Under the pieces are notes generated by a model. The model was not told the DNA's origin. It did not search any database and was given only the letters and a program-made list of their open reading frames with translations. A stretch of DNA of 64,000 nucleotides from Thioalkalivibrio sp. AKL19 (lineage in GTDB: Bacteria > Pseudomonadota > Gammaproteobacteria > Ectothiorhodospirales > Ectothiorhodospiraceae): positions 1-64,000 of the forward strand of contig NZ_ATUK01000012.1 in the NCBI RefSeq assembly GCF_000420165.1, in the 5' to 3' direction. Every line of letters starts with the position of its first letter. Position 1 is the stretch's first letter. This document shows positions 8,844-62,316 of the stretch, in pieces. Position numbers and translations under genes: made by a program.

Positions 8844-10865
8844 ATGCCAAAGCAGGATGCGGACCACCTTCTCGCCCGCGTGGAAGATGCCGATCTCGAC
8901 CTGGCCGAGACCCTGCGCCAGATCGTCGACTGGCTGCGCCCGGAAGACCCGCGCAACGTCGCGCCGGTGATCGCCCGGATCGAACAGCTGACCCTGGCGC
9001 TGGCGGAGAACCCGCGCCTTCAGGAGCGGCTGCGCACGCGGCTGGAAGACGGGCTGGAAGACGCCCGGCACCTCACGCTGTACACCGGCATCGGGTTGTT
9101 CTCGCGCAAGGGGTTCTTCCGCGAGGCGGCCGAGCTGATCTACGAGCGCGTCAATCCGCGACCGATGGATCGGGGCGACCTGAAGGACGTGTTGTTCCAC
9201 GTCTTCCACCAGACCGATGACGCCATCTGGGTCGCGGCCCTGCCGGACGATGCCTGGTGGCGTTTCCTGGAATCGCTGGGTTGCCTCTCCGGCGAGCACC
9301 CCGGCGTCCTGCACCGGGCCCGCGAAGAGATCCTCTACGCCCTGGAGATGCTCTCCATCTGGGTCGCCGCGGAGGAACTGGAACCGGAGCTGCTGCGCCT
9401 GGACCCCTCGATCGCCGAACGCAACTCGGCGTTTGTCGCCCAGGAGCGGGAGATCTCGGCCTACGTGCGCGACTACCGCGCCGCGCTGGAAGACCCCAAC
9501 CGCGAGCGCATGGACGACCGCCACGCCCGGGTGCTGCTCGAGCAGTGCGGCGAGCAGATCGCGCGTCTGCGCCGTCTGGCCATCACCCACGGCAACAGCC
9601 TGTCGCTCACGCACCTGCTGGAGCGGCTGGACCAAACCCTCCGGCGCATCCACAAGCTGCTCGACCTGCTGGAGCCCGACCCGGACCGCGACGCCCGCGC
9701 CGCCTCGGTAGGGGTGTTCCGCGAACTCATCACCATCAGCGCCCGCCAGCACGGCGTACGCGCGCTGTGGCAGGACAACATCAAGCTGGTCTCGCGCAGC
9801 ATCACCCAGCATGTCAGCGACACCGGCGAGCATTACATCACCCAGTCGCGCGGCGAATACTTCCAGATGCTGCGCTCCGGGGCCGGCGCCGGGCTGATTA
9901 TCGCAGTGATGGCCCTGATCAAGATCCAGATTGAATCCCTCGGGCTGTCCCACGCGGCCAACACCCTTTGGGTAAGCCTGAATTACGGCCTCGGCTTCGT
10001 GCTGATCCACATCCTGCATTTCACGGTGGCCACCAAGCAGCCGGCCATGACCGCCGCGCGCCTGGCCGCCGCCATCGAGGAGAGCGACCGCGGCACGGCC
10101 GACCCGCGCAAGATGGCGGATCTGCTGATGCGCGTGGGACGTTCGCAGTTTGCCGCGGTGCTTGGCAACGTGGGCATCGCCCTGCCCACCGCCATCGTGA
10201 TCGGCTTTCTTGCGGCCACCATGTTCGAGGCCCCGATCCTGTCCAGTCGCGAGATCGACTACCTGATGGACGGCCTGCGCCCGATCATGGGCCTGGCGCT
10301 TTTCTTCGCCGCGATTGCCGGGGTATGGCTGTTCGTCTCCGGCCTGATCGCCGGCTTTTTCGACAACCGCTGCGCCTATCTCGACCTGCCCGGGAGACTG
10401 CGCGAACACCCACTGCTGCGCCGGCTCCTGCCGACCGGCGCACGCCACCGCCTGGCCGACTGGATCGGCTACAACTACGGCGCGCTGATCGGCAACTTCC
10501 TGTTCGGGGTCCTGCTGGGGGTTACCGGCTATATCGGTTACCTGCTGAACCTCCCGCTGGATATCCAGCACGTGGCCTTCGCCTCGGCCAACCTGGGCTA
10601 TGTGACCGCCAGTGAGGCCCCCGGCCTGGCCATGTTCGCACTGTTCCTGGTGTTCGTGCTGCTGATCGGCGCGGTCAACCTGTGGGTCAGTTTCGGGCTC
10701 GCGCTGTACGTCGCGCTGCGCGCACGCGGCGTGCGTATCGGGGCCTTCGGCCGCGTGTTCCAGGCCTACGGTCAACACCTGCGCGAACGCCCCCGCGAGT
10801 TCCTGTTCCCGCCCGGTCCCCCGAACAGCGCCGACGGGGACGACGACCCGTCCGATGCGCGGTAA
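8844..10865 (+). CDS. Gcr-type 'site-specific recombinase' family membrane protein
   Basis: A 673-residue protein of the SpecificRecomb/Gcr family (PF10136). Residues 1-330 are soluble and largely helical (repeated LLERLDQTLRRIHKLLDLL-like stretches). The C-terminal half has about six membrane segments, for example near residues 350-365, 385-400, 445-465, 485-515, 545-570 and 600-630. The historic recombinase label comes from a gonococcal gene, but no recombinase catalytic motif is visible and the membrane topology argues against that role, so the function is best called unknown. AGGGA lies 7 nt before the ATG. The 3' end overlaps the next gene by 11 nt, implying coupled translation. Confidence 0.75.
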   Translation: MPKQDADHLLARVEDADLDLAETLRQIVDWLRPEDPRNVAPVIARIEQLTLALAENPRLQERLRTRLEDGLEDARHLTLYTGIGLFSRKGFFREAAELIYERVNPRPMDRGDLKDVLFHVFHQTDDAIWVAALPDDAWWRFLESLGCLSGEHPGVLHRAREEILYALEMLSIWVAAEELEPELLRLDPSIAERNSAFVAQEREISAYVRDYRAALEDPNRERMDDRHARVLLEQCGEQIARLRRLAITHGNSLSLTHLLERLDQTLRRIHKLLDLLEPDPDRDARAASVGVFRELITISARQHGVRALWQDNIKLVSRSITQHVSDTGEHYITQSRGEYFQMLRSGAGAGLIIAVMALIKIQIESLGLSHAANTLWVSLNYGLGFVLIHILHFTVATKQPAMTAARLAAAIEESDRGTADPRKMADLLMRVGRSQFAAVLGNVGIALPTAIVIGFLAATMFEAPILSSREIDYLMDGLRPIMGLALFFAAIAGVWLFVSGLIAGFFDNRCAYLDLPGRLREHPLLRRLLPTGARHRLADWIGYNYGALIGNFLFGVLLGVTGYIGYLLNLPLDIQHVAFASANLGYVTASEAPGLAMFALFLVFVLLIGAVNLWVSFGLALYVALRARGVRIGAFGRVFQAYGQHLRERPREFLFPPGPPNSADGDDDPSDAR

Positions 10866-33355: not shown

Positions 33356-33432
33356 TGGTAGCGGGGGCAGGATTTGAACCTGCGACCTTCGGGTTATGAG
33401 CCCGACGAGCTGCCAGACTGCTCCACCCCGCA
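33356..33432 (-). tRNA. metY: Initiator tRNA-fMet (CAT), metY position
   Basis: A 77-nt tRNA on the minus strand with anticodon CAT. The three consecutive G:C pairs next to the anticodon loop (CGGG and CCCG) and an unpaired first position (T1 opposite T72) are hallmarks of the initiator. CCA is encoded. It lies directly upstream of rimP-nusA-infB, as metY does in E. coli, and has its own promoter and terminator. Confidence 0.97.
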
Positions 33433-48838: not shown

Positions 48839-48923
48839 TGGTGCAGATGGTGGGACTCGAACCCACACGGCTTGCGCCACTACCCCCTCAAGATAGCGTG
48901 TCTACCAATTCCACCACATCTGC
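48839..48923 (-). tRNA. tRNA-Leu (anticodon GAG)
   Basis: An 85-nt class II tRNA on the minus strand: acceptor GCAGATG with CATCTGC, discriminator A and encoded CCA. The anticodon loop TTGAGGG gives GAG, which reads CUC and CUU. The extra arm GGCGCAAGCC forms a short hairpin. It lies between secG and nuoA as in many gammaproteobacteria. Confidence 0.95.
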
Positions 48924-59432: not shown

Positions 59433-60566
59433 TTAGCTGCGCGCCGTGCGCATCATCTCGACAAAGTCGTCGAACGCCGGGGACACGTCATGCGGACCCG
59501 GACTCGCCTCCGGATGGCCCTGCAGGCTGAAGGCCGGGCAGTCGGTGCGGGCGATGCCCTGGAGCGTGCCGTCGAACAGCGAGCGGTACGTCGGCGTCAG
59601 CGTCTCCGGCAGGTTGTCCTCGTCGATCGCGAAGCCGTGGTTCTGCGACGAGATCATCACCCGCCCGCTGGCCTCGTGCCGGATCGGGTGGTTCGCCCCG
59701 TGGTGGCCGAACTTCATCTTCACGCTCTTGCCGCCACTGGCGATACCCAGCAGCTGATGCCCCAGGCAGATCCCGAACAGCGGCAGCTTGCGCTCGCAGA
59801 AGTCGCGGATCGCATTGATCGCATAGGTGCAGGGCTCGGGGTCGCCCGGACCATTGGACAGGAACACGCCATCCGGCTTGAGTTCCATCACCTCGTCCAC
59901 CGGCGTCTCGGCCGGAACGACGGTCACGCGGCAGCCGCGATCCGCCAGCATGCGCAGGATGTTTTGTTTCATGCCGAAATCGTAGGCCACCACATGGTAG
60001 TCGGCGGCCTTCGCATCAACCCGGGCCGGCTCCTCGCCCAGCTGCCAGGTCCCCTCCAGCCACTCGTAGCGGCTGCGCGTGGTCACCTCGCGCGCCAGGT
60101 CCATGCCCTTGATCCCGGGAAACTCGCGGGCCGCCGCCAGGGCCGCAGCCTCGTCCACGTCACCGGCCTGGATGCAGCCGTTCAGCGCGCCCTTCTCGCG
60201 CAGGATGCGGGTCAGCTTGCGGGTATCGATCCCGCTGATCGCCACGATGCCGTGACGCAGCAGATAGTCGGGCAGCGACTCGCGCGAGCGCCAGTTGGAC
60301 ACCAGCGGCGGCAGATCACGGATGATCAGCCCTGCGGCATGTGCCCGCGAGGATTCGTCGTCCTCCGGGTTGGTCCCGGTATTGCCGATATGCGGATAGG
60401 TCAGCGTAACCATCTGCCGGTGATAGGACGGATCGGTGAGGATCTCCTGATACCCGGTCATCGCGGTGTTGAACACCACCTCGCCAACCGTCTGGCCCAG
60501 GGCGCCAATCGCCTGACCATGAAACACAGTGCCATCTTCCAGGACGAGCAGAGCAGGCGCGGACAC
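59433..60566 (-). CDS. carA: Carbamoyl-phosphate synthase small subunit
   Basis: A 377-residue glutaminase subunit. An N-terminal domain ([13 protein letters not shown]) precedes a class I glutamine amidotransferase domain with [11 protein letters not shown] (nucleophilic cysteine near residue 270) and [10 protein letters not shown], supplying His and Glu. Ammonia is passed to CarB. The start is taken as GTG at 60566, behind GGAGG with 6-nt spacing. An in-frame ATG at 60632 would add 22 residues of poor conservation. Confidence 0.95.
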
Positions 60567-60838
60567 GGGGGACCTCCGGATGGTCTGGGTCGGGGCCGCC
60601 AGGCCTTTGCCGGCGGCGATACTGCGATTCATTCGGGATCTTCGACCCGGCCTTTCCCGCACCGTTTCACCGGGGGACTGGACCCCGTTCACGGACAACG
60701 GTTCGGAGCTTCAGGACGGGTACGGATACGCCCTCAAGTGTACGCGAGCGCCGCGCGCGGCGTCCAACGAGATCCCCGCTTTCGGCGTCATCCGCCTCTC
60801 CGCCCCAGGCTGGCAATCGCTCACCCTTGGGCGTTGAT

Positions 60839-60953
60839 GGCTGGTCCCCGTTCGTCGCCCGGTGTTTCGCCTGCCTTCGGCCCGCCGCCTGCCTCGTGGT
60901 GGCTGGCCCTGGTTCGGCATCGGTGTTTACGTGCCTTCGTCCGGCCGCCTGCC
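60839..60953. repeat. Two tandem copies of a 62-bp unit
   Basis: GGCTGGTCCCCGTTCG at 60839 recurs as GGCTGGCCCTGGTTCG at 60901, and each unit ends with the block CGCCTGCC after GGTGTTT and GCCTTCG. Period 62 bp, with several mismatches. The unit is the outer edge of the structured element that follows; the inverted copy near 61630 has it only once. Confidence 0.6.
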
Positions 60954-61200
60954 AGGCGCTGACTCGCCAGCGCGCCGCGAGGCACTTCTTTGCTCGTGCA
61001 AAGAAGTGCCCAAGAAACACGCCCGACTGCCGCGACCCCGGCCCGCTGTGCGGGCCGGGGTTTCCCTCGCTCCGAGGGTTTTCGCGGGCGGCGCTGAACT
61101 CGCTGCGCCTACGGCTCCGCTCAGACATCCAGCCCCTTTTCTCCCGCGAAAACCCTCTCCACTCGGCGCGACGACAACGGGGGGTTCAAGGTCAAGACAA
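60895..61200 (+). repeat. Structured intergenic repeat, copy A
   Basis: About 300 bp with a modular fold. First is a 13-bp perfect hairpin (60981-60993 with 60998-61010, loop TCGT), then an 11-bp hairpin (61036-61046 with 61050-61060, loop TGT). A 15-bp perfect stem (61074-61088 with 61143-61157) then encloses a core reading GCTGAACTCGCTGCGCC through CAGACATCCAG. A second copy lies inverted at 61342-61640 with an almost identical core but different stem sequences that still pair. No credible protein is encoded; open frames here are low-complexity and frame-inconsistent. Together with its partner it fills the carA-ruvA gap. Confidence 0.65.
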
Positions 61201-61341
61201 CGGCGATCCACACGTGCGCGCCAGTAGATGAAGGCTGGGTCTTCCGGCATCTGGGCACGCTCGGCCTGCGGCCATAGCGTGCCGCGCCCGCAAGCGGGCG
61301 CCGGGGGCTTTCGGGCGGCGATGCCTATGGTTAGGCAGAAG
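61201..61341. other. Spacer between the two inverted repeat copies
   Basis: This 140-bp centre separates copies A and B. It contains two nested GC-rich palindromes (for example GCGCCCGCAAGCGGGCGCC near 61286) but no gene or promoter that I can support. Confidence 0.3.
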
Positions 61342-61640
61342 CGTGAGGATACGTTCGGTTTTGACCTTCCTCTCCCGTATGGAGCCCCTTGCGGAAGGGT
61401 TCTCGGGCCGGGAGAAGGCGCTGGATGTCTGAGCGGAGCCGAAGGCGTAGCGAGTTCAGCGCCGCCGGCCCGAGGGCCCTGGAGCAAGGTTCCTGGGCGG
61501 AATCCGGGTGCCCTTCTTTGGGTCCTTTCTTGGACAAGCAAGAAAGGACCTCGCGGTGCGCTGGCGAGAGAGCGCGTGGCAGGCGGCAGACCGGAGCCAC
61601 CGTAAACAACCCAGGACGAACCGGGGCCAGCCTGCATGGG
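61342..61640 (-). repeat. Structured intergenic repeat, copy B (inverted)
   Basis: Read on the minus strand this copies the layout of copy A. A 12-bp perfect hairpin (61521-61532 with 61539-61550) corresponds to the first hairpin of A, and a 10-bp perfect stem (61402-61411 with 61465-61474) closes the same core, which matches copy A except at about four positions. Stem sequences differ from A yet remain complementary. The outer flank includes the GGCTGGCCCCGGTTCG and CGCCTGCC blocks also seen around 60839-60953. Confidence 0.65.
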
Positions 61641-61707: not shown

Positions 61708-62316
61708 CTAGCGCTTGACGGTGGAGCGCAGGGCGAGCCGCACCAGCGTCTCCACCGAATCCGCCTGGTCGCGGACCGCCGCGACCATCTTCTCGGCGCT
61801 GGCCCGCGGATAGCCCAACGACTCCAGCGCGGCCAGTGCCTCGCCCTCCATCGCGGCGGCGGGCGTCGGCTCGCTGCCGGCCACGCCCCCGGCGGGTGCA
61901 GCGGCAAAGCCCATCTCTACGAGACGCTCGCCCAGTTCCAGCACGATGCGCTCGGCCGTGCGCTTGCCGATGCCCGGCACCTTGGCCAGGCCCGTGACGT
62001 CACCACCACTGATCAGACCCGCCAGCTCGTCGCCGGCATAGGTGGAGAGCATCGCGAGCGCGAGCTTGGCGCCGATGCCGTTCACCCGGATCAGGCGCCG
62101 GAACAGGTCGCGATCGCGCTTGTTCAGGAAGCCGAACAGCTGGTGGGCATCCTCGCGCACGACGAGGTGGGTGGCCAGCACGACGGTTTCGCCCGGCTCT
62201 GGCAGGGCCGCCAGCGTGGACAGCGGGACATCGACCTCGTAGCCGACCCCGCCGGTGTCGATCACAACACCACCCACCTCGCGGCTGATCAGCCGGCCTT
62301 CCAGCCGGGCAATCAT
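61708..62316 (-). CDS. ruvA: Holliday junction branch migration protein RuvA
   Basis: A 202-residue DNA-binding subunit that forms tetramers on Holliday junctions with RuvB. An OB-fold domain begins the protein (MIARLEGRLISREVGGVVID), followed by two helix-hairpin-helix motifs (LIRVNGIGAKLALAML and LAKVPGIGKRTAERIV) and the mobile C-terminal domain (about 150-202). The usual next gene, ruvB, is not found downstream; the repeat region lies there instead. Confidence 0.97.
   Translation of the reverse strand: MIARLEGRLISREVGGVVIDTGGVGYEVDVPLSTLAALPEPGETVVLATHLVVREDAHQLFGFLNKRDRDLFRRLIRVNGIGAKLALAMLSTYAGDELAGLISGGDVTGLAKVPGIGKRTAERIVLELGERLVEMGFAAAPAGGVAGSEPTPAAAMEGEALAALESLGYPRASAEKMVAAVRDQADSVETLVRLALRSTVKR

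Follow-up and report, generated by a model that had tools for sequence, protein, structure and literature searches.

A dispersed two-module repeat of Thioalkalivibrio with covarying stems and strand-asymmetric loops: a candidate folded single-strand DNA element

The stretch of DNA that we have analysed, hereafter the window, comprises 64,000 nucleotides of a contig of Thioalkalivibrio sp. AKL19. Between its minus-strand open reading frames at 59433-60698 and 61708-62316, which we take to be carA and ruvA, lies one copy of a dispersed, non-coding unit in which two structured modules, A and B, face each other: the modules fold, their stems carry compensatory changes, the two-module layout is kept, related modules are spread over many bacterial families, the apical loops differ between the strands, and copies occur in opposite orientations and have exchanged sequence with each other. 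In appearance it is not a gene but a folding DNA element of a kind that has been little described; on the comparisons presented here, our tentative reading, which we judge to fall just short of probable, is that it is a non-autonomous element with a REPIN-like layout, selected in the form of a folded single DNA strand.

The first-pass annotation of the window had described two facing elements of roughly 300 bp, with nearly identical cores and perfectly paired flanking stems. The facing arrangement stands, but the two elements are not independent, both being located within one dispersed unit (624 bp for its inner part), which is enclosed by outer repeats of about 55 bp (Table 1). The cores (61089-61142 in A, and 61412-61464, reverse-complemented, in B) differ at 4 of 53 aligned positions; the closing stems (A 61074-61088/61143-61157; B 61402-61411/61465-61474, the latter being a portion of a longer imperfect helix) and the upstream hairpins (A 60981-60993/60998-61010; B 61521-61532/61539-61550) are exact, as had been reported, and the inner stem of module A (61090-61096/61130-61136) has one mismatch in the window copy. 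From the outside inward, the unit consists of the outer repeat, the hairpins H0, H1 and H2 (or a smaller hairpin), the closing stem, the inner stem, the apex and a variable spacer; a 7-base linker directly follows the first left copy of the outer repeat. The ends of the inner unit have been judged from the alignment of copies, from the relatives L088 and L090, in which the match to the unit ends within the outer repeat, and from a core-less palindrome in genome G026. The region 60895-61640 holds four perfect inverted repeats of at least 12 bases with loops of at most 60, compared with none in 200 dinucleotide-preserving shuffles. The frames that run through the element were expected to be poor proteins, and none of the eight matches a Pfam or NCBIfam family.

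Table 1. Coordinates of the window copy and of TwoAYGGAY matches at related loci.
Feature	Position	Strand	Remark
Outer repeat, left copy 1	60839..60893	+	GGCTGG...CCGCCTGCC; direct-repeat (60-bp spacing) and outer-repeat searches
Outer repeat, left copy 2	60901..60953	+	abuts inner unit
Inner unit: module A, spacer, module B, facing	60954..61577	.	624 bp end to end
H0, module A terminal hairpin	60956..60973	+	GCGCTG/CAGCGC; GCGCTC/GAGCGC in other copies
H1 hairpin, module A	60981..61010	+	13-bp perfect stem, tail CAAGAAACACGCCC
H2 hairpin, module A	61035..61061	+	
Module A: closing and inner stems, apical core	61074..61157	+	minus-strand apex C(GTA)G
Spacer between modules	61158..61386	.	more variable; frames without protein family
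Module B: closing and inner stems, apical core (61412-61464)	61387..61489	-	plus-strand apex C(GAA)G
H1 hairpin, module B	61521..61550	-	12-bp perfect stem
H0, module B terminal hairpin	61558..61575	-	
Outer repeat, right copy	61578..61632	-	
TwoAYGGAY matches, locus L148	642-978	both strands	Rfam
TwoAYGGAY matches, locus L160	23-92, 269-337 (below cut-off), 1734-1802	both strands	Rfam

The 84-base core of module A has 28 matches in the host genome, which form 13 facing A/B pairs (308-389 bases from start to start) and two singles at contig ends; a search with the outer repeat added three loci that hold module fragments only (L120-L122), and twelve loci match the window unit, in one piece or in two, at 85-91% across most of its approximately 750 bp. 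The modules A and B differ in type, and both types are kept: among 120 module matches, the loci with two complete modules hold one A and one B, with the sole exception of L096, where both modules score as B, while single modules occur at the ends of contigs or fetched stretches, at the reduced site L102, or as fragments. The type of H1 can be swapped between A and B (L096, L097, L088, L090), and the frames of the longest spacer (L090) are unremarkable by the listing of open reading frames. By DNA similarity, the core occurs in 16 of 58 genomes, including the host, all from one genus, and 14 of the 30 genomes of this genus have no core match.

Several local variations have been observed among the copies. 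Inserts of about 15-20 bases, one type of which is palindromic, replace part of the 5' arm of H1 in L028, L091, L092, L098, L106, L108, L113, L114, L115 and L119; inserts of this size are located beside the closing stem in L009, L010, L026 and others; the contig ends L013 and L014 have a common interior variant, with an inverted repeat of the type GGTGCG...CGCACC beside module B. Ends resembling those of insertion sequences abut H1 in the host-genome loci L008 (before about 158; a transposase-like C-terminus, presumably IS481-like) and L121 (about 500-535), as if the insertion sequence targeted H1.

The proposal that the structure is kept by compensatory changes has been borne out in many copies. 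Our alignments contain 17 of the 42 distinct complete A modules and 20 of the 47 complete B modules, hand-picked for few small inserts and for diversity. Both-sided changes affect 11 of the 57 pairs of module A (mean of the shuffles 4.4) and 14 of the 49 pairs of module B (mean of the shuffles 8.5), values that none of 500 shuffles reached in either case; when the structures are slid by 1-3 columns, 0-3 both-sided pairs are left. The number of further pair types does not exceed the shuffles, 87 of 500 (A) and 491 of 500 (B) of which reach the observed value; a few alternative pairs are reused often in the stems, and, with exchange within the genome, some of the paired changes may be few events that were copied many times. 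Stem changes are almost always from one Watson-Crick pair to another: 1859 of 1908 stem cells are Watson-Crick, 8 are G-T on the module strand, 18 are G-T on the other strand (A-C on the module strand) and 23 are of other kinds, excluding one variable apical pair per alignment, with which the G-T counts become 13 and 26. RNA families usually contain more G-U pairs.

Outer repeat and inner unit are distinct repeats, one nested in the other: in genomes G007 and G012 the match to the unit ends within the outer repeat, and genome G009 has 27 outer-repeat matches versus one core match. At locus L101 of G026, two outer arms stand face to face around a 7-base linker and the inner unit is absent; a second reduced site occurs in G026 and one in G022, and these sites are compatible with either a pre-insertion state or deletion. 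The two reduced sites of G026 were inspected for target duplication, and neither is a clean empty site.

At least 11 sites of the host genome have been compared with eight relatives. At the eight sites where both flanks and two modules are present in a relative, the unit, among the matches listed, has the same orientation in 7 of 16 site-by-genome comparisons and is flipped in 9, which are not 16 events, as the relatives share ancestry. Copies at matching sites resemble each other no more closely than paralogues do (A 0.939 versus 0.947; B 0.878 versus 0.907), thus the module sequences are not independent. In genome G002, the left flank of the window copy is joined to the right flank of L007, and the right flank of the window copy to the left flank of L007, with A and B between each, which is a reciprocal exchange between the two copies. 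Elsewhere, at L081 (about 9996-10130, in G026) and L103 (in G024), flanks of different host-genome sites are joined with only outer-repeat remnants between them.

These dynamics bear on the main rival to the folded single-strand reading, according to which the unit is an ordinary repeat that is kept palindromic by mutation bias, i.e. by template switching in hairpins together with gene conversion, so that paired changes arise without functional selection. The nearly exclusive occurrence of perfect, both-sided changes with few intermediates, the recurrence of alleles between copies, the lack of greater similarity between orthologous sites than between paralogues, and the occurrence of a recombining unit in both orientations all fit such a bias; we consider it unlikely nonetheless, since it leaves unexplained the strand asymmetry of the loop, as well as the similar loop class, the H1 tail and the facing layout that are found in several families with other stems.

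The strand asymmetry was assessed by calling the apex on the strand opposite to the module, with a longest-stem rule. Of the 83 distinct cores of the own genus, 66 have the apex C(GNA)G and the other 17 have no GNA or GNNA apex; in other genera, 29 of 51 cores have such an apex (20 GNA and 9 GNNA, 27 of them closed by C-G) and 22 have none, and the mirror loops TNC and TNNC were found in none of these 51 cores by the same rule. Eight of the nine GNNA loops have a pyrimidine at the third position, unlike the GNRA loops of RNA, and one is GAAA. According to PMC4686876, DNA mini-hairpins in which two or more G-C pairs close a GNA or GNNA loop are extraordinarily stable. An energy-based DNA fold with a stricter core pattern gave 53 GNA, 1 mirror, 25 other and 2 unfolded among 81 cores of the own genus, and 7 GNNA, 3 GNA, 10 other and 12 unfolded among 32 of other genera, and is weaker support than the longest-stem count; the unfolded short cores include GC(GNA)GC strings, whose published stability the folding program did not reproduce. 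Read on the module strand, the long apices that occur in the own genus give c(UNCG)g, an RNA loop, hence in that genus taken by itself the loop does not discriminate between DNA and RNA; a distinction between the two is provided by the short triloops and by the GNNA apices of other genera.

The alternative that the modules encode structured non-coding RNAs, either two of them or a single one that is read from either strand, and that the stems are maintained because the RNA has to fold, seems to us more unlikely still than mutation bias. Module A has a very strong fold as RNA on the plus strand (z = -7.27; as DNA on the minus strand, z = -6.44), and the c(UNCG)g apices would suit an RNA; against this stand the rarity of G-T pairs on both strands, the short apices that are not c(UNCG)g, the lack of a sigma-70 promoter match, and the lack of an Rfam match above threshold. 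In the window, the only Rfam matches above the cut-off are three tRNAs, all outside the element, and five chance-level matches lie below the cut-off at the element, in keeping with the first-pass annotation, which had proposed the Rfam comparison. The three tRNA genes are on the minus strand, at 72-159, 33359-33432 and 48842-48923.

One Rfam family does occur at modules elsewhere: TwoAYGGAY (RF01731) has matches at module apices, or next to them, in G396 and G193, both genomes of one family (loci L148 and L160), and in neither the window nor the other 18 of the 20 loci searched. The matches in the apex region are in favour of an RNA, but at L148 the family matches once on each strand, i.e. once per orientation, each time opposite to the module strand; in these two genomes it is located on the strand that bears the GNA or GNNA apex elsewhere. 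It differs from the present element in that the window apex is unmatched and that Rfam lists a cis-regulatory RNA, not half of a facing DNA pair. TwoAYGGAY is given as a probable RNA, not cis-regulatory, in the list of PMC2864571, and has been proposed to bind CsrA in the account of PMC4333381. The first-pass annotation had left the choice between a folded RNA and single-stranded DNA as in REP transposition; the single-stranded DNA is favoured over RNA because of the loop type, the strand asymmetry, the rare G-T pairs and the lack of a promoter match, while membership of the REP sequences is not supported.

The spread of the modules beyond the genus has been followed with a covariance model built from them, R1, whose E-values are rough. 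R1 matches 74 of 369 genomes of the class, in 59 of 271 genera (two of the 74 genomes being from the host's own genus), and 58 of the 398 genomes of the phylum sample, including the own genus; a single family group outside the class accounts for 25 of these 58. There are further matches in Desulfobulbaceae/Desulfuromonadales and, more weakly, in Bacteroidota (18-24 bits only in Flavobacterium and Parabacteroides), and some of the named matches are metagenome bins that could be contamination. At the loci read by eye, for example in Haemophilus quentini, Variovorax and a Desulfobulbaceae genome, the order is H1, a purine-rich tail, a long stem and an apex similar to AACTCGC...GCTCARACA, with quite different stem sequences. 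R1 misses relatives, such as Marinobacter L165, where two long stems face each other and bear the core at their apex, but H1 is absent and R1 does not match. Among 40 loci from 40 genomes of the class, one hand-picked R1 match per genome, a partner detected by R1 or by motif is facing in 11, tandem in one and clearly divergent in none, and the rest have no detected partner; facing R1 pairs occur at seven other named loci (L178, L179, L186, L187, L208, L219, L233), and Luteimonas L175 has a divergent pair. The 19-base core alone is not diagnostic: of the 80 listed of at least 118 stretches, 31 have an R1 match (E <= 0.01) and 49 have none.

Among viral contigs, 18 of the 80 loci listed, of 87 stretches, have an R1 match, and in related contigs single modules are located upstream of the neighbour of a gene similar to that of the terminase small subunit, the gene names being taken from gene order and similarity to PHL101. 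The gap at the module position is 111 bases in PHL101 versus 244 in L352, with proteins that are only 45% identical. Modules are also seen among the structural genes of prophages that are related to each other and apparently P2-like (L286, L290, L340, L352, L294, L354). Plasmid and phage collections gave no match to the window unit, and no match in most searches with units from other bacteria; in one such search, 27 plasmid records matched, none covering 80% of the query, mostly with short H1 matches, and a 48-base match to H1 plus tail (87.5%) lies on an Ilyobacter plasmid. Literature searches with the H1 string, the core strings and the topic, in titles and abstracts, returned no description of the element family, an absence that is limited to these searches.

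What the unit has in common with REPINs and BIMEs is that hairpins in inverted pairs are scattered over intergenic positions (the host genome has 13 facing pairs), and that recognition of single-strand DNA is inferred. The present unit differs in its module of about 200 nt with several hairpins, and in the stems, which differ between the two modules of one unit. The definition of REP sequences, as worded in PMC2817692, includes a GT(A/G)G head that immediately precedes a short palindrome; by eye, this head is absent from the aligned copies, where other bases precede H0 and H1. Since two defining features, this head in the aligned copies and a flanked RAYT gene at the 20 Y1 loci searched, were not found, we do not claim membership of REP or REPIN.

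That the unit is nevertheless moved in trans by a Y1 (RAYT/IS200-type) HUH transposase, as a REPIN-like unit would be, appears very improbable. Besides the dispersed inverted pair of hairpins, this alternative can call on the greater frequency of Y1 matches where modules are present (60 of the 74 genomes with modules and 181 of the 295 other genomes of the class, p = 0.0015, an enrichment that may follow genome size or quality), and on a Y1 subclass in Chromatiales which, according to the text of PMC6006769, is not flanked by REP-like structures. However, 14 of the 74 module-bearing genomes have no Y1 match, including the single-contig genome G396, and a search of 20 Y1 loci gave only two weak module matches (E = 0.006), none convincing. 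Least probable of all is that the modules are single-strand initiation sites, one per strand, at which DNA synthesis is primed when a single strand is exposed: the presence of a GNA-type apex on each strand and the modules in viral contigs would agree with this, such hairpins being linked with phage replication origins, but no known primosome motif was recognised by eye and nearly half of the genomes of the genus (14 of 30) have no core match.

Other known repeats have also been considered. The unit shares with MITEs its multiple copies, its terminal inverted repeats and the lack of an internal gene, but no parent transposon was found, its internal structure covaries, and the two reduced sites of G026 are not clean empty sites. 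The R200 family of P. fluorescens (320 bp; PMC2718517), compared by description only, is likewise a long intergenic repeat, with no structure given in the table of that source. The Soda Lake RNA (smtA motif) is, as described in PMC11109978, a large covarying structure found only in Thioalkalivibrio, the genus of the window, beside purH; it was rejected by location, as none of 26 purH loci (1.5 kb on each side of the domain) holds the unit.

Under the folded single-strand reading, each module would fold into H0, H1, H2 or a smaller hairpin and the long closing stem; at the tip of this stem, a GNA or GNNA mini-hairpin would form on the strand opposite to the module. Because the modules face each other, each chromosome strand would bear one GNA-type apex, whichever strand is exposed, for example as the lagging-strand template. 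Single-stranded DNA would be the selected form, a putative trans-acting protein would recognise the folded strand, and the same putative protein would copy or move the unit; copies within a genome are homogenised and recombine with each other, and this would invert the unit at its site and cause rearrangements of the chromosome.

A broader extension, which we regard as doubtful, is that these units may belong to an unnamed, bacteria-wide class of paired single-strand DNA elements with free stems, an H1 tail that recurs, a GNA or GNNA apex of which one works on each strand, and a putative conserved factor that recognises them, in which case TwoAYGGAY, and perhaps Bacillaceae-1, would be apices of such DNA and not RNAs. 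If the DNA reading is true, covariation of intergenic DNA is insufficient to call an RNA, and some of the listed RNA families need a second look; if distant bacteria have one factor that reads such an apex, it would be an unrecognised part of single-strand DNA handling. The open frames of the unit have no protein-family match, and it is likely that spurious "hypothetical proteins" derive from them. Regardless of the mechanism, the unit occurs in both orientations at shared sites and is located at a chromosome rearrangement.
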